DNA from: an uncultured Coriobacteriales bacterium
GTDB lineage: Bacteria > Actinomycetota > Coriobacteriia > Coriobacteriales > Atopobiaceae
Assembly: GCA_946530775.1 (NCBI GenBank)
Contig: CAMNAH010000011.1
Coordinates: 1-14,393, forward strand
Reading direction: 5' to 3'
Length of the DNA stretch: 14,393 nt
Position numbers and translations under genes: made by a program
Notes under the pieces: generated by a model
What the model saw: only the letters and a program-made list of their open reading frames with translations
Databases searched by the model: none
Told to the model about the DNA's origin: nothing
In this document: positions 1 through 9,193 of the stretch, one piece after another
Layout of the letters: each line of letters begins with the position of its first letter
Numbering within the stretch: the stretch's first letter is position 1

Positions 1-77
1 AGCGCGACAAGCCCAGCTCGTCTGCCGGCATGCCGGAGCCGCATTCCTGCGAGAACTGCCCGCATAAGGGCGAGTAG
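1..77 (+). CDS. 3' end of an unidentified protein with a C-terminal CxxC
   Basis: A reading frame open from base 3 ends at TAG (75-77). It encodes the last 24 residues of a protein, ending in SCENCPHKGE. The tail is hydrophilic and holds a CxxC pair (CENC) followed by His, which would suit a small metal-binding or redox tail. Codon use is GC-rich, like the housekeeping genes. The other two forward frames lack this continuity: frame 2 stops at 64-66, and frame 1 reads through as an Arg-rich low-complexity peptide. I do not recognise the family from this fragment. The gene points toward rsmB, so the palindrome-flanked unit that follows lies downstream of both genes. Confidence 0.5.
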   Translation, partial: RDKPSSSAGMPEPHSCENCPHKGE

Positions 78-97: not shown

Positions 98-174
98 AAT
101 AACACGCACTTCTCAGCGATTATTCGGGCTTCTCTTTTTGAAGTCCGAATAGTATTGATAAAGTGCTTGTTATT
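98..174. repeat. 77-base imperfect palindrome, left copy flanking the 199-1425 gene
   Basis: Outer arms AATAACACGCACTT (98-111) and AAGTGCTTGTTATT (161-174) are complementary except at one position. Inner arms TATTCGGGCTT (121-131) and AAGTCCGAATA (141-151) are also complementary except for one position. Two 9-base unpaired spacers (112-120 and 152-160) and a 9-base loop (132-140) separate them. A similar 77-base palindrome lies at 1426-1502. By hand count the two share 57 of 77 positions when one is reverse-complemented, and 47 of 77 in direct orientation, so they are best seen as inverted copies. There is no clear U-tract after either arm, so a simple terminator does not explain it well. 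Confidence 0.85.
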
Positions 175-198
175 TAAGGCCCTGCTCTTGGAGAAACC

Positions 199-1425
199 GT
201 GCGACTGACCCTCAATTCCCTCACCGCGCTCCGAATCACCCGTGCAATCCGGCTTGGCATGATTCCATGCGACCTTTCCCACCGCTGCGGTTTCATTGCA
301 CCAGACCCCCAACCGAGAATCCGCTGGACTGCAAAAAGCCTTGCTTCAGGCCTTGATTTTCTTGGAAGCACGTCCGGAATCTCAGATTGCAAGCAGCTCG
401 ACGTCTTGGTTTCCGAAAGATCGCAGCGCCTGCAGTTGAAGTGTGCGCACAATACGTTCCGCTGCGGCAGCTATCCCTCCGGGTCGTTTGTCTACCTAGG
501 TAACGGCATTGCCATGAGCGGACCGGAACTGCTCTTCGTAGAGCTCGCAAACGTTATGGACCCCGCCGTGCACCTGTTACTGGGCATGGAGCTCTGCGGC
601 CGCTTCTCACGCGATGCTGGGAATCCGCGCACGGGCACTGTTCGATACGACATTCCTCCGGCCACGACGGTCAAGCGGCTCCGTAAGTTCGCCGAGGAAG
701 CGCACTGGATCCGCGGCGCCGAGCGCGCCCTCTCGACCATCAACCGTATCGTCGAAAATGCCTGGTCGCCCATGGAGGCAATCGCTGCTGCACTTATCGT
801 GCTCCCCCGCAGCGAGCTGGGCTATGACATGTGGCCGATCACGCTCAATCCGCGAAAGGTGTTAGATGAGAGGCTTGCACAGTATAGCGATGCCGACTCG
901 CGCGTGCCAGACATCATGTTCTCGGGAACCAGTGTTGGGCTTAACTATGATGGCGAGGATCATTTCCGCCTCTCCGAGATTGTTCGCGCAGCTGTTGCGG
1001 CTGACCGCGAACCGGGAAACGCGGCCCTCTCCCAAGAGCTCGAGTCGGCGCTTTCCGAAGCACGGGAAAGGATCGTGTCCGATAAGCGACGCGACCGCGA
1101 CCTCATGGCCCTCGGTCTCACCGTTTTCTCTATTACAAAAGAAGATTTAGAGGAACGGGGTGGGTTCGACCGCGCGATGGGTCATGTTATCGAAGCAATA
1201 GACCGAAATGGGGAGCGAAACCTCGCTCTGCAACGAAGTGCGCTCGAGAGCGGTTTGCTTGCAGATGCGCGACAGGACTTCATCTGGTCGCTTATGCCAG
1301 GTCCACAGTCACTCGAGGCGCGTAAACGACTCGAATATTGGAAACAGATGGAGCTGAGCGAATTCGTGGTTGAATTTGAGCTGAGCAACGGGGAAACCCG
1401 CATGATATCAGTTAAAGAGCTCTAA
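199..1425 (+). CDS. Hypothetical protein with PD-(D/E)XK/DUF559-like nuclease-fold region
   Basis: This 408-residue protein starts at GTG 199, with GGAG (190-193) five bases upstream. The next in-frame ATG (259) has no good ribosome binding site and would remove the conserved-looking N-terminal LTALRITR segment. No signal peptide or membrane segment is seen. Blocks I associate with a Coriobacteriia hypothetical family are PELLFVELANVM (109-120), GMELCGRFS (129-137), SPMEA (190-194) and GYDMWPITLN (208-217). Next come PDIMF (237-241), LNYDGEDHF (248-256) and DRDLMALGLTVFSITKEDL (299-317). The last three resemble the D, (E)xDGxxH and distal strand-helix elements of Vsr/DUF559-type endonucleases. 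Asn249 sits where a catalytic Glu would be expected, so activity is doubtful. The gene stands alone between two large palindromes, and its GC is lower than rsmB's. A role in DNA binding, defence or as an antitoxin-like protein is inference only. Confidence 0.75.
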   Translation: MRLTLNSLTALRITRAIRLGMIPCDLSHRCGFIAPDPQPRIRWTAKSLASGLDFLGSTSGISDCKQLDVLVSERSQRLQLKCAHNTFRCGSYPSGSFVYLGNGIAMSGPELLFVELANVMDPAVHLLLGMELCGRFSRDAGNPRTGTVRYDIPPATTVKRLRKFAEEAHWIRGAERALSTINRIVENAWSPMEAIAAALIVLPRSELGYDMWPITLNPRKVLDERLAQYSDADSRVPDIMFSGTSVGLNYDGEDHFRLSEIVRAAVAADREPGNAALSQELESALSEARERIVSDKRRDRDLMALGLTVFSITKEDLEERGGFDRAMGHVIEAIDRNGERNLALQRSALESGLLADARQDFIWSLMPGPQSLEARKRLEYWKQMELSEFVVEFELSNGETRMISVKEL

Positions 1426-1502
1426 AATAACAAGCACTTTGGCAAAGTTATTTGGTCTCAAAAAAATGGAGGTCGAATAATACCTGCAAAGTGTATGTTA
1501 TT
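1426..1502. repeat. 77-base imperfect palindrome, right copy flanking the 199-1425 gene
   Basis: It begins right after the TAA of the 199-1425 gene. Outer arms are AATAACAAGCACTTT (1426-1440) and AAAGTGTATGTTATT (1488-1502), with two mismatches. Inner arms TTATTTGGTCTC (1448-1459) and GAGGTCGAATAA (1469-1480) differ at three positions, some of which can form G-U pairs. Spacers of 7 bases lie at 1441-1447 and 1481-1487, and the loop (1460-1468) is nine bases. Length and plan match the left copy. The arm nearest the gene is a perfect 15-base inverted match to bases 160-174. The outer arm contains the rsmB stop codon (TAA on the - strand, 1498-1500). Confidence 0.85.
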
Positions 1503-2748
1503 TTCGCTTGAGGACGGCGCAGAAGTGGCCATCGCAGGAGCCTGATGCGGTGACGGTCTGCATATCGTCGCGAACACGCGAGAACCCCTTGCCTGCACCG
1601 CTTGCGAGAAACGCATCCACCACGCAGCCGTTCTCCTCGGCAAGCACCGAGCACGTCGAATAGACGAGATGCCCGCCGGGCGCCACACGCGCAGATGCAG
1701 CGGTAAGCAGCGCGGCCTGGAGCCTTGCCTGCTCTGAAACGCCCTCGGGCGTGAGCGTTGATGCGATCTCGGGGTGGCGGCGCATGGTCCCCGTACCCGA
1801 GCACGGCGCATCGAGAAACACGCAGCCAAAGGTTCGGTTGAGCGCTTTGGGAAGGTCGGAGCCGGCAAGCAGGGTGCCGTCAAAGGCACACGAGCGCACG
1901 CGATTGCCGAGACCGGCACGGCGGATACGCCCCTGAGCTGCGGAGACCTTCGATTCGAGCACATCGACAGCCGTGATGCTGGCAGAGCAGCGACGTGCGA
2001 TGATGAGCGACTTGGTGCCGCTCCCCTGCCCAATCTCGAGCAGGTCGTCGCCCGCGAGCTCCGCAACCGTTGCGCACACGCGCTGCGCGGCGAGATCGCT
2101 CACGACGACGTCCCCGGATTGCACGAGGCCGGAGGAGAACAGCCCCGCAGGCTCGCGGAGCTCGTACACGCGGTCGAGGCCCGTGGCGCGCGGCGAGAAC
2201 CGCGCAAGCGGGCCGGCGTCATCGGCAAACACGTAGACCGGGGCAGGCTCGAGGTTGCAGCATGCAAGCGCCTCGGCAGCCTCACGTCCATGATCTGCAG
2301 CGATGCGCTCGATCAGCCATGCAGGCAGCCCCGAGCGCATGTGCAGGTCGTCATCGGCCACCTTGACCTCGGCGATCTTGCGCAGCACCGCGTTCGCAAG
2401 GCCAGCGGCGCGGGACGATGCCGAGCGCACAAGCTCGACGCCCTGGCTCACGGCAACCTCGGCAGGCGTTCCGAGATAGAGCAGCTCGAAGGCGGCGATG
2501 CGCAGCGCATCGCGCACCCGGGGTTCGAGCGCCGAAGGTTTTCTCACCTGCGCATCGATGATCTCGTCGAGCACGATACGGGCGGCAACCGCACCGATAG
2601 CGAGCCGTGTGGCGAGAGCCGTATCCGAAGCGGACAGCTGTGCGAACGCCTTATGCGTGCGGATGATATCGCGGATGCGGCCATCGCGGCGCCGCGCATC
2701 GGAGAGCGCGGCGAGGGCGGCACGCCTGGCAGGGGCCAGCTTGGTCAT
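1498..2748 (-). CDS. rsmB: 16S rRNA (cytosine(967)-C5)-methyltransferase RsmB
   Basis: RsmB transfers a methyl group from S-adenosylmethionine to C5 of C967 in 16S rRNA. The protein is 416 residues. Residues 1-130 are the helical NusB-like RNA-binding domain (an RRAALAAL start, then VSQGVELVR and LANAVLRK). Residues 160-416 are the Rossmann methyltransferase. The family signatures are DAPCSGTGTMRRHPEI (313-328, Cys316) and STCSV (364-368, nucleophile Cys366). Motif I reads EIGQGSGTKS (238-247) rather than the usual DxCAAPGGKT. The start at 2748 gives an ATGA overlap with the fmt stop, implying translational coupling. An upstream in-frame start would add 15 residues inside fmt and lacks support. 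The stop codon lies inside the 1426-1502 palindrome. The operon order priA-def-fmt-rsmB supports the call. Confidence 0.93.
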   Translation of the reverse strand: MTKLAPARRAALAALSDARRRDGRIRDIIRTHKAFAQLSASDTALATRLAIGAVAARIVLDEIIDAQVRKPSALEPRVRDALRIAAFELLYLGTPAEVAVSQGVELVRSASSRAAGLANAVLRKIAEVKVADDDLHMRSGLPAWLIERIAADHGREAAEALACCNLEPAPVYVFADDAGPLARFSPRATGLDRVYELREPAGLFSSGLVQSGDVVVSDLAAQRVCATVAELAGDDLLEIGQGSGTKSLIIARRCSASITAVDVLESKVSAAQGRIRRAGLGNRVRSCAFDGTLLAGSDLPKALNRTFGCVFLDAPCSGTGTMRRHPEIASTLTPEGVSEQARLQAALLTAASARVAPGGHLVYSTCSVLAEENGCVVDAFLASGAGKGFSRVRDDMQTVTASGSCDGHFCAVLKRK

Positions 2749-6631: not shown

Positions 6632-7915
6632 TCAATCGCCACACGCCTCAATAAGCTGCTGCCATGTCTGGTTCGGCGTCCGACCATTCCGCTTAAAGAA
6701 GAAATCTATTCTGTAAGGAAGCGCTGTGCGCACATTCTCCTTCTTTTGGGGATACGCACCGTCCCTGGCAAACGTCCCGAAAACCACATCTGAGAGACCG
6801 ATTGTTGGATCGAGCCAATCCGCCTTCTTCATAATCCAGGCCGCATATCCCCTGTCCGGACCCGATTTGCCAGACACAAGTCCCTTGGCATACGATCTGA
6901 GCTTGGAAGCGGCATCGAAACGCTCTGATTCCTCAAGCGCATTTCTCAACCTATCAATCTCTGTGTTGAACGCATCGACTTCCCGCTGTGCCTCGACAAC
7001 TTTCCTTGTATAAGCCTCGGCTTCGGACTCCACTTCAAGACGATGCAAGCGTTTTGCTGCGCACACACGGCAAATCGCGAGAAAAACCTCGTCAAGTTGC
7101 TGCTCCAAAGCCATGTCGTCTCGCTCCGAGAAAACAGTTTTGAAGGTCCAGTTCCATCTGTCATTCATGTAGGGGGTGACGCCAGTTAATACGGAGATAG
7201 ATAGCATTCCCGTGAAACGCTTATCCCATTTTCGGATGTTGGGTTTATCCCAATCGTTCTTCGTCTTCTCGTAGCGCGAGATGGCCTTCTTCTCGTTAGC
7301 GGTAAGCGCATGGCTCTCGTTCACAGTGCGCTCTCGGATTTCCAAGGAGACCCTCTCGCCAAATGCCTGTATCTCAAGCGGGCCCGACATGCAACCGCCG
7401 ATACTCTCCACCGCCCGCGCGATCGTCTCCATCATTGACATCGATCTGCTGGCTTGCTCGGTGCTAACAAAATCATCGAACGAGTAGTACTGTGGGTGAT
7501 TCACCCTCATAATGGTCCCCAGACACCCACGGTGCTTCATCTCTGACAAGATAGGCCTTAACCTTGCCTTTGGATGATGCTCGATTCCCTCGGCAACTAG
7601 GAAAACCTTCTTTCGCACGGCTTCCTCGAACAGCGAAAGGGGGTCGCGCGGGTCTCTATGGGCCATCTCGTCCTCGTCCAAACCTTTTCCAATGACAAAA
7701 CCTCGAGTCGCCGAATCGGAAAGCTTGGGTTTATGCACGCTTTTCCCTGCGCGGACCTTTGCCCAATACCCGCGTGGCGGAGTTGGAACGTCAAGTTTGC
7801 GACATATCTTTTTAAGCATCACGCTCGAGATACCATACTTGCGGGCCACCTCGACCATCGGGGACTCCCAAACTTCCTCATATAGCGCCTGGCGTTCATA
7901 GATATTGCGTTTCAA
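6632..7915 (-). CDS. Hypothetical protein with N-terminal helix-turn-helix and coiled coil
   Basis: This 427-residue protein starts at TTG (7913-7915), with AGGGGG eight bases upstream (7924-7929) overlapping the stop of the ATPase gene. Residues 5-52 (YERQALYEEVW, VARKYGISSVMLKKICRK, PTPPRGYWAK) form a helix-turn-helix module. I recognise it as a recurring N-terminus of uncharacterised bacterial proteins. About 285-350 is a Glu/Arg-rich region likely to form a coiled coil. The C-terminus (LPYRIDFFFKRNG, TWQQLIEACGD) is compact and has no catalytic motif I can identify. It is the second gene of an operon with the DUF4143 ATPase, 12 bp apart, and is visibly less GC-rich than priA just downstream. 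Sequence-specific DNA binding is likely; the function is unknown. A defence or stress role is inference from the setting only. Confidence 0.85.
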   Translation of the reverse strand: MKRNIYERQALYEEVWESPMVEVARKYGISSVMLKKICRKLDVPTPPRGYWAKVRAGKSVHKPKLSDSATRGFVIGKGLDEDEMAHRDPRDPLSLFEEAVRKKVFLVAEGIEHHPKARLRPILSEMKHRGCLGTIMRVNHPQYYSFDDFVSTEQASRSMSMMETIARAVESIGGCMSGPLEIQAFGERVSLEIRERTVNESHALTANEKKAISRYEKTKNDWDKPNIRKWDKRFTGMLSISVLTGVTPYMNDRWNWTFKTVFSERDDMALEQQLDEVFLAICRVCAAKRLHRLEVESEAEAYTRKVVEAQREVDAFNTEIDRLRNALEESERFDAASKLRSYAKGLVSGKSGPDRGYAAWIMKKADWLDPTIGLSDVVFGTFARDGAYPQKKENVRTALPYRIDFFFKRNGRTPNQTWQQLIEACGD

Positions 7916-7927
7916 AAGGCCAACCCC

Positions 7928-9193
7928 CTATCGAAGAAAGAAATCAGCCGCGCGAATGATGCGAATACCTTCGATGTTTTGGGGATAGTTCCCCTGGCGA
8001 ACAACCACACACTTCGCATGGTTATCTGGAATCGATCTTAATGGCGCCAATTCACGCTCGAGCGTATCCTCGCCAAACATGTTGTCGGCAACCTGTATAT
8101 ACTGGACTTCTCCGTTTCGGATACACACGAAGTCGACCTCTTTTTGATACAGCTTTCCCACCTTTACGGACCAGCCCTCGTGCAAAAGCTGCAGGAACAC
8201 AGCGTTCTCGAAAACGCGTCCCATATCGGACGGCCGATAACCGAGCAGAAAAGAGCGTAGGCCAGTGTCGACGATATACTGCTTGGGCAGCGTTTTGAGA
8301 ACTGCCTTTCCGTGCAAGTCGTATCGTCTCACTGGGTAGAACGCATATGCATCGTTCAGCGCCCTCACATAGGCTGAGACGGTCTTATCGGTCACCTTCA
8401 TAGTCTGCGAGAGCGCCCCGGCCATTCCGTTTGCCGAAAGCGTATTGCCGATATTGTCTGCAAGGAACTCACAGATGAGTCTGAGCAGGTCTGAATTGCC
8501 GATGGCGCGCTCTATAACATTTCGCTGTCTGTCGAGAATATCTCGAACCAAGACCGTCTCATAAAGCGACGAGAGATACGCTGCATGCTGCAATTGCGTA
8601 GTGGAAAGGGAGGCTATCGCGGGCATGCCTCCAAATTGAAGGAAACGAGCCAGAAGATCGTCTGTCAAAATCGGCTCCCCGCCATCACGTAGCATAAGGG
8701 AATTGCCTGCGTTGGGTCTAAGACCGCAGAAATCCGCGTACTCTCTAAATGACAACGGGAGCATCTTGATTTCCACATAGCGTCCGGAGAGATAGGTTGC
8801 CAATTCCCCCGAGAGCAGAAATGCATTCGAACCCGTCAGATATATATCGCAGTCGAAGCCAACACGAAGCGAGTTTATAACATCATGCCATCCCGCAATA
8901 CGCTGGATTTCGTCAATGAAGATATAGGTCCTGCCCTCCCCCATCTGGGCCTTGCAGCATTCATAAAGATCTTCGTCTGTACGAACGCCAACCTCCCGGT
9001 CCTCTAGGTTGAGCGATACAAAGGCACGTCCCGGGACGCTCTCCCGCTCGATATGATCTTTAATTAGTTGGAGCAGGGATGACTTTCCGCAGCGGCGCAC
9101 TCCCGTAATAACCTTTACCAAATCGGTATCGCGGAACATAAGGGCTTGCTCAAGATATACTGGTCTCTGTATGAGGTCGTCAGCCATTTGCAT
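7928..9193 (-). CDS. AAA_14/DUF4143 family ATP-binding protein
   Basis: The protein has 421 residues from ATG 9193. It has a P-loop GVRRCGKSS (31-39), Walker B YIFIDE (90-95) and sensor LTGSN (119-123), followed by the DUF4143 domain. That domain has a PD-(D/E)XK-like C-terminus: GRVFEN (Glu329), KEVDFV (Glu352, Asp354) and YIQV (Gln367). The family is widespread and of uncertain biological role, though many members are accessory genes. I prefer ATG 9193 (ATG 9187 is also possible) over ATG 9244. A TATAAT box lies at 9233-9238, so transcription would begin inside the longer frame, and GGA precedes 9193. Members typically begin a few residues before the IxRPxYL segment. It is the first gene of a two-gene operon and divergent from the MerR gene. 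Confidence 0.9.
   Translation of the reverse strand: MQMADDLIQRPVYLEQALMFRDTDLVKVITGVRRCGKSSLLQLIKDHIERESVPGRAFVSLNLEDREVGVRTDEDLYECCKAQMGEGRTYIFIDEIQRIAGWHDVINSLRVGFDCDIYLTGSNAFLLSGELATYLSGRYVEIKMLPLSFREYADFCGLRPNAGNSLMLRDGGEPILTDDLLARFLQFGGMPAIASLSTTQLQHAAYLSSLYETVLVRDILDRQRNVIERAIGNSDLLRLICEFLADNIGNTLSANGMAGALSQTMKVTDKTVSAYVRALNDAYAFYPVRRYDLHGKAVLKTLPKQYIVDTGLRSFLLGYRPSDMGRVFENAVFLQLLHEGWSVKVGKLYQKEVDFVCIRNGEVQYIQVADNMFGEDTLERELAPLRSIPDNHAKCVVVRQGNYPQNIEGIRIIRAADFFLR

Follow-up and report, generated by a model that had tools for sequence, protein, structure and literature searches.

Organization of the locus

The window, i.e., the whole stretch of DNA analysed here (14,393 nucleotides (nt) of contig CAMNAH010000011.1 from an uncultured Coriobacteriales bacterium), carries near its left end a single gene enclosed by two palindromes, designated U (upstream) and D (downstream). 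The features of this unit and its borders are collected in Table 1. The initial annotation had described U and D as 77-base palindromes built on the same plan; the dyads at 98-174 and 1426-1502 were confirmed, with 25 and 24 of 38 positions self-paired, respectively. It had also counted, by hand, 57 identical positions of 77 between U and D taken as inverted copies. This count was reproduced, and the best of 20 mononucleotide shuffles of positions 1-1502 reached 42. The arms that face the gene, said to match perfectly over 15 bases, do so for 15 nt or more, and a repeat-finding tool reported arms at 98-178 and 1422-1502 that are 74% complementary. When folded as single-stranded DNA, the four palindrome strands gave z-scores of -6.5, -6.2, -4.9 and -3.1 relative to dinucleotide shuffles, and the predicted fold consists of an outer stem, a weak spacer, an inner stem and a loop. 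The G+C content is 36% and 32% in the palindromes, 57% in the gene and 66-69% in the neighbour genes.

As initially annotated, two convergent genes border the unit with their 3′ ends, one of them a zinc-ribbon gene of the fmdB type and the other rsmB, whose stop codon (1498-1500) falls inside D. A covariance model, R1, recognized U and D in the window and no third place. No known RNA family (Rfam) was matched by palindromes in the first 3 kb of the window or in 13 loci (loci and genomes are denoted below by L and G numbers). The Rfam Corio-PBP RNA (RF02945) was met at positions 1595-1666 of L129, near a distant paralog of the gene, apparently as a separate and unrelated element.

Table 1. Features of the unit and of its borders in the window
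Feature	Position	Strand	Details
Upstream palindrome U	98-174		77 nt; outer arms 98-112/160-174, inner stem 119-131/141-153, loop 132-140
Downstream palindrome D	1426-1502		77 nt, inverted copy of U; outer arms 1426-1440/1488-1502, inner stem 1447-1459/1469-1481, loop 1460-1468
Gene of the unit	199-1425	+	GTG start; 408 amino acids; Coriobacteriia family protein
Candidate nuclease core	901-1098	+	R235, D238, N249-Y250-D251-G252, H255, DKRRDR 295-300
Zinc-ribbon gene, presumably fmdB type, 3′ end	1-76	+	Left border of the insertion site, outside the unit
rsmB, 16S rRNA methyltransferase	1498-2748	-	Frame to 2793; right border of the insertion site, outside the unit

Matching palindromes flank the gene across the family

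A homologue search with the window protein gave 168 matches, and among the 120 listed the few with a named source were from Coriobacteriia. Seventy-one of the 79 loci examined (L001-L079) were assigned to Coriobacteriia taxa, and eight stood under broader names. In an even sample of 296 Coriobacteriia genomes, 44 had a family member at E ≤ 1e-40. The 18 genomes reached via the loci contained 2-16 family matches each at E ≤ 0.001, some of which were fragments. Plasmid, phage and viral-contig homologues were sought and none was matched, hence carriage by such elements was rejected.

The 350 nt upstream of the gene were then compared with the 350 nt downstream, in both orientations, using a threshold score of 40. 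This score was reached in 48 of the 72 loci that have both flanks, compared with none of the 67 neighbour open reading frames (ORFs) in these loci (best score 36) and 1.9% of 1500 cross-locus pairs. The window unit, which has a short upstream flank, was computed apart and scored 57. The flanking repeats are palindromes of ~70-105 nt that lie either direct or inverted to each other, and their sequences differ greatly between units.

In the window subfamily, 13 palindromes that we selected could be aligned free of gaps across the 77-nt core. The inner stem (TATTCGG/CCGAATA) is conserved, and in the outer stem both sides have changed at nine of the 15 pairs. The proportion of paired cells (79.3% vs 72.9 after shuffling), the number of doubly changed cells (49 vs 28.8) and the covariation score (0.294 vs 0.183) were each above all 500 shuffles. 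Such covariation means that the two ends of the palindrome stay alike, and it is no proof of a hairpin; the conserved inverted ends would fit binding by a dyad-symmetric protein as well as they fit a hairpin.

When palindrome similarity was related to protein identity for 74 genes, using pairs below 80% identity, the Mantel correlation was 0.191, and none of 999 permutations was as high (best 0.117). Stem similarity thus tends to follow the phylogeny of the gene, a trend that is real but modest. On reading the loci, the stem type was found to go with the gene lineage rather than with the locus.

Gene-less copies are dispersed in the genomes

Palindromes of the same types also occur away from the gene. 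With R1, in a scan that scored at most 46 candidates per genome, a match at E ≤ 0.01 was obtained in 16 of 101 family genomes. Five of these, namely G031, G032, G050, G057 and G099, were only weakly positive (5e-4 to 2e-3), and G003 had 10 distinct places. In G051, three R1 places fall within 270 nt (L349, G051:C120) and at least 46 strand matches were counted, which looks like an array-like expansion of a related palindrome.

A second class was followed with the pattern TAACRCGCA-N(48-78)-TGCGYGTTA (the TAAC pattern), which matched in four of 17 gene-bearing genomes. The reversed pattern gave 1-2 matches in five of the 17, none of them being the TAAC-positive four. Among 31 congeners of G010, the TAAC pattern was present in 20, with a maximum of 28 places (G118, flanking copies included), and the reversed pattern had no match. 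Of 50 distinct TAAC palindromes, 37 are exactly 73 nt long, and in 33 of the 37 the very centre reads CWG, with the core ATATCCGCAGKT. The ends are 9-nt sites that mostly stand 73 nt end to end; the middle is poorly paired as judged by eye. A further palindrome type, AAGTGAACACG, was found in seven of seven genomes searched. In all four species compared, one such palindrome is ~13 kb away from the unit; on the other side the distance is ~17 kb in three of the species and 28 kb in the remaining one. Many congeners have the strings CGAGAAG/CTTCTCG repeatedly within their palindromes and close to them (L056, L059, L119, L318, L320 and others).

Twenty stretches with a solo palindrome were read; none had a family ORF within reach, and no recurring gene set was seen. 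Some solo palindromes are upstream of genes, e.g., one in L176 precedes a gene that is presumably rpsL. The number of palindromes was linked to the presence of the cognate gene: 11 of the 31 congeners have a gene flanked by the TAAC stem and contain 3-28 palindromes each (gene-flanking copies included), and 17 of the 20 congeners that lack a cognate-flanked gene contain 0-2 (Mann-Whitney p = 2e-5, uncorrected for kinship; all family matches were read except the second copy in G123, and some are cut by contig ends).

What lies between neighbouring palindromes varies. In G112 a frame-broken remnant of the family gene is found between two TAAC palindromes (L342, 1785-2300), which, judged from its sequence, is a decayed unit. 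L345 (1801-2688) has a 231-amino acid ATPase-like ORF between two palindromes of the window type and no family gene, a possible capture of other cargo. Other genes also lie between neighbouring palindromes in L341 (1214-3316; a 585-amino acid zinc-ribbon protein) and in L344 (1921-5018).

Units are present, absent or replaced at fixed loci

The fmdB-type gene converges on rsmB in 15 of 20 relatives with rsmB loci. In G001 this interval is occupied by a 1345-nt unit in which the gene, relative to rsmB, runs the opposite way and the distal palindrome is truncated. The G001 and window genes are 67% identical and the rsmB genes 66%, and this similar divergence fits descent at the locus with an inversion in place; an independent insertion is also possible. 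G047 has, by reading, a single palindrome with a different stem. The locus is empty, with no palindrome, in G002, G103 and G003, and the gap measures at most 51 nt in these three and in G084 and G042. The remaining eight relatives have spacers of 54-372 nt to which no class was assigned.

Thirty congeners were classified by reading at a second locus, which is bounded by a conserved gene and tRNA-Leu: nine were empty (15-52 nt), eight had units, 11 had repeats only and two had other genes. The right border lies beyond the stretch in G102, G108, G016, G123 and G110, and for the four units among these five genomes the second palindrome was read separately. As at the window locus, the units sit between convergent transcripts. 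The ten genes tied to the tRNA-Leu locus, two of which (G110 and G114) are at contig breaks or have one border only, do not form one clade; at least three label changes are forced (four in the best tree), and these may include losses. They also group more tightly on the tree than under label shuffling (mean 8.5; as low in none of 500). In G110 the left flank with a whole palindrome and the gene with its right flank are on different contigs (L339 and L306), and on the gene side just the last bases of the palindrome are left, a rearrangement break at the palindrome edge.

G079 has exactly one palindrome where G008 and G010 have a unit, the adjoining flanks being 87-94% identical and the next block 82-84%. 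This fits the entry of a gene into an existing palindrome, and loss of the gene is at least as likely. In a third spacer, nine of 20 loci were readable with both borders; six of them carry three stem types (G008/G102, G010/G079 and G104/G113), and the other three have decayed or unlike repeats. Some supposed unit insertions proved to be other genes, by reading a short-chain dehydrogenase in one case, and G104 and G113 also belong here. At ~871-942 kb of G010 (L245/L249) a palindrome pair at tRNA-Met is tangled with an island, and the tRNA region is partly repeated at both ends; the island seems to have inserted at tRNA-Met beside a palindrome.

The initial annotation had taken 98-1502 for a cassette-like mobile unit. 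It proposed to look for sites with one or no palindrome and for further genomic copies, and held that the same gene and palindromes at this locus in all relatives, with no other copies, would contradict mobility. At the window locus three relatives lack any palindrome, the tRNA-Leu locus is empty in nine congeners, G079 has exactly one palindrome in place of a unit, and further copies were recovered with R1 and with the TAAC and AAGTGAACACG types. The mobile unit was thereby supported.

Elsewhere in the window, positions 6632-9193, between priA and a merR-type gene, hold two ORFs with a G+C content of 51-52% in surroundings of 64-69%. One codes for a 427-amino acid protein that has no assigned function, and the other for an AAA_14/DUF4143 ATPase that matches PADLOC PDC-S01. 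This looks like a separate insertion.

Distant paralogs point to a nuclease fold

An alignment of 34 chosen sequences of the close family (A1) has 36 invariant columns. Nine Pfam families were matched by any of the 34 members, and the Y1 transposase family (PF01797) is not among them; two A1 members gave weak matches to AbiEi_1 (best E 0.057). The identity of a defence system was considered and dropped, as the window protein has no PADLOC match.

The link to nucleases became apparent with A3, a set of seven distant paralogs chosen from 20 fetched. The A1 and A3 profiles were aligned by hhalign over 318 columns with a probability of 100 (E 1.7e-42). At E ≤ 1, five of the seven A3 sequences matched DUF559 (best 1.5e-4) and six matched MTES_1575 (best 8.6e-6), both of them Vsr-like families. 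When four distant paralogs were searched singly, one DUF559 match exceeded the curated cut-off (22.1 vs 20.6 bits) and one protein had no match. Against the PDB, the A3 profile matched 3r3p, a 'Mobile intron protein' (E 1.5e-6) that is presumably I-Bth0305I. These results suggest that the window protein has a nuclease fold related to DUF559/MTES_1575 (PD-(D/E)XK), with an uncertain activity.

Discussion

From these data we consider it probable that 98-1502 is a selfish mobile unit whose protein, with a nuclease fold of the DUF559/EDxHD-like kind, recognizes its own palindrome, and whose gene-less copies are non-autonomous; the unit would resemble a REPtron, i.e., a gene for a transposase associated with repetitive extragenic palindromes (REP; RAYT) together with its palindromes, and would use an unrelated enzyme. 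The protein itself would move the palindromes. It would bind as a dimer to the two inverted ends of the 73-79-bp dyad and cut at or near the palindrome. Repair of the break from another copy would then bring a palindrome, at times the whole palindrome-gene-palindrome, into new intergenic sites, and recombination or deletion between the flanking palindromes would leave solo palindromes or inversions. Since no target-site duplication was found, and because the fold is that of homing and restriction nucleases, such nuclease-plus-repair (homing-like) copying seems likelier than strand transfer of the transposase type. If the gene-less copies are dispersed non-autonomous relatives, the whole would therefore work like the RAYT/REP system with another enzyme.

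Several observations weigh against this reading. The window protein matched no Pfam, NCBIfam or PADLOC model and the close-family profile matched no PDB chain, and its link to nucleases runs through the distant paralogs. In the motif NYDGxxH all 34 aligned close-family members have N at the position of the acidic E of the DUF559-type paralogs, and because of this replacement the close-family protein may not cut. The flank match is below the threshold in 24 of the 72 loci, and the flank-association statistics carry no phylogenetic correction. Two of the five covariation measures were within the shuffles (both-side-changed pairs, 16 vs 15.2; further pair types, 37 vs 36.0). TAAC palindromes were present in G119 (4), G079 (5) and G112 (13), where no intact cognate-flanked gene was found, and three of the four intervals read between neighbouring palindromes that have no intact family gene hold other genes. 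The copies can be old, since the spacing of the AAGTGAACACG palindromes to the unit is similar in G004, G006, G007 and G018, and the clustering of the tRNA-Leu-locus genes beyond shuffles argues for partial inheritance in place. Gain and loss are not polarised in G079. A comparison of G079 with G010 revealed no clear target-site duplication, the other comparisons being too diverged, and DNA queries around two G008 palindromes and the tRNA-Met pair gave no clean one.

It could be argued that the gene is a passenger, and that the palindromes, with whatever stands between two of them, are moved by another enzyme of the host, either a Y1/RAYT transposase or a tyrosine recombinase. Y1_Tnp genes are indeed common (52 matches, in 19 of 20 genomes searched), the three intervals with other genes (L341, L344 and L345) would be expected, and core-like strings of the CCCAGTTG/CCGCAGG class were met in RAYT flanks, two at L284 and one each at L289 and L292. 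However, the 20 of the 52 RAYT genes that were read (L281-L300) all have matching flank repeats of their own above shuffles, 18 of them with a score of at least 40, a result that at the same time validates the flank comparison, and the TAAC stem was beside none of these 20. RAYT-driven spread of the palindromes was rejected for this reason. Furthermore, the G011 assembly contains nine TAAC palindromes but lacks a Y1 gene, and the stem tends to vary with the phylogeny of the gene that it encloses; the passenger role is therefore unlikely. We regard as rather unlikely, too, that the protein, its nuclease fold being dead, is a sequence-specific DNA-binding regulator or a nucleoid protein for which the palindromes are operators, with the flanking pair serving autoregulation or insulation. 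The N in place of the acidic residue, the 73-nt distance of most TAAC ends, as for a dimeric binder, and solo palindromes upstream of genes such as that in L176 would all suit a regulator. They have to be set against the finding that congeners have, lack or replace the unit at one and the same locus, the two flanking copies, the position of units between convergent transcripts, the gene remnant left between palindromes and the absence of a recurring gene set in the 20 solo stretches.

The likeness to integrons pointed out in the initial annotation found no support, although the mobile unit did. A cassette with attC-like sites recombined by an integrase would also be a single gene with folded, palindromic, poorly conserved and lineage-specific border sites, and a few palindrome pairs do enclose other genes. 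Yet the integron cores (RYYYAAC/GTTRRRY) are absent from both U and D, in accordance with the initial annotation, the units carry one gene family, and the flanking palindromes occur in both relative orientations. No cassette array was met, no systematic search having been made. The integron cassette was rejected on the cores and the arrays, and is in our view very improbable. Least probable of all is that U and D are ordinary bidirectional terminators that flank the gene by chance. The position of the unit between convergent genes would be natural for terminators, but no terminator-like site was predicted in 1-1700, the flanks match family-wide, and the dispersed cognate copies and empty sites already refute terminators devoid of mobility.

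The selfish unit that we favour finds its closest counterpart in RAYT/REP systems (REPtrons and REPINs, with IS200/IS605-related TnpA-REP). According to PMC2817692, RAYT genes are flanked by cognate palindromes with which they co-evolve, gene-less copies are dispersed and palindrome abundance follows the gene (see also PMC3116915); the units described here likewise have an enzyme-like gene between two palindromes of its own, dispersed gene-less palindromes, co-evolving stems and an abundance that follows the cognate gene. HUH transposases are proposed to spread REP-like palindromes (PMC2817692, PMC8266576), whereas the unit family has no Y1/HUH protein and its distant paralogs match DUF559/MTES_1575. 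The unit palindromes are also longer, ~70-105 nt against the 20-40 bp stated for REPs in PMC3733652, U and D lack the REP heads GTAG/CGTC, and the flanking copies are direct or inverted. The highest count for any one type was 28 by exact pattern, diverged copies being left aside, compared with more than 100 in RAYT/REP systems. In overall plan the units resemble REPtrons, although none of their components was found to be homologous to a part of any described palindrome-spreading system.

With homing endonucleases (EDxHD/PD-(D/E)XK) the units would share a nuclease fold, via the distant paralogs. The unit gene, unlike those of homing endonucleases, is free-standing and intergenic, has no intron or intein, and is flanked by whole palindromes instead of splitting a target site in a host gene. 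DUF559/MTES_1575 nucleases, some of which have AbiEi-type N-termini, resemble the unit protein in that its distant paralogs match these Pfam models; they differ in the acidic residue that is N in the close family, and in that the window protein matches no curated model. We know of no report of this nuclease family as a spreader of palindromes. In the literature searched, including PMC8040213 and PMC12306157, such a system was not found described. According to PMC3943268, I-Bth0305I is an EDxHD enzyme whose dimer occupies nearly 60 bp of target DNA. This long target is a suggestive parallel to the 73-79-bp dyad, for which dimer binding is proposed here.

Whether the units form a new class of element, in which a DUF559-EDxHD nuclease dimerises on its own 70-100-bp palindrome and propagates it, with lineage-specific co-evolving stems, as a convergent counterpart of RAYT/REP that is widespread in Coriobacteriia, is a proposition on which we are evenly divided. 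What the data reveal is that a second gene family, unrelated to HUH transposases, has the signatures of a REPtron, and the strategy of a palindrome with its cognate enzyme would for that reason have evolved at least two times. If the reading is true, the family would offer many natural protein/site pairs of changing specificity, some of the turnover between genes in Coriobacteriia would be accounted for, and an unannotated protein family would gain a testable role.

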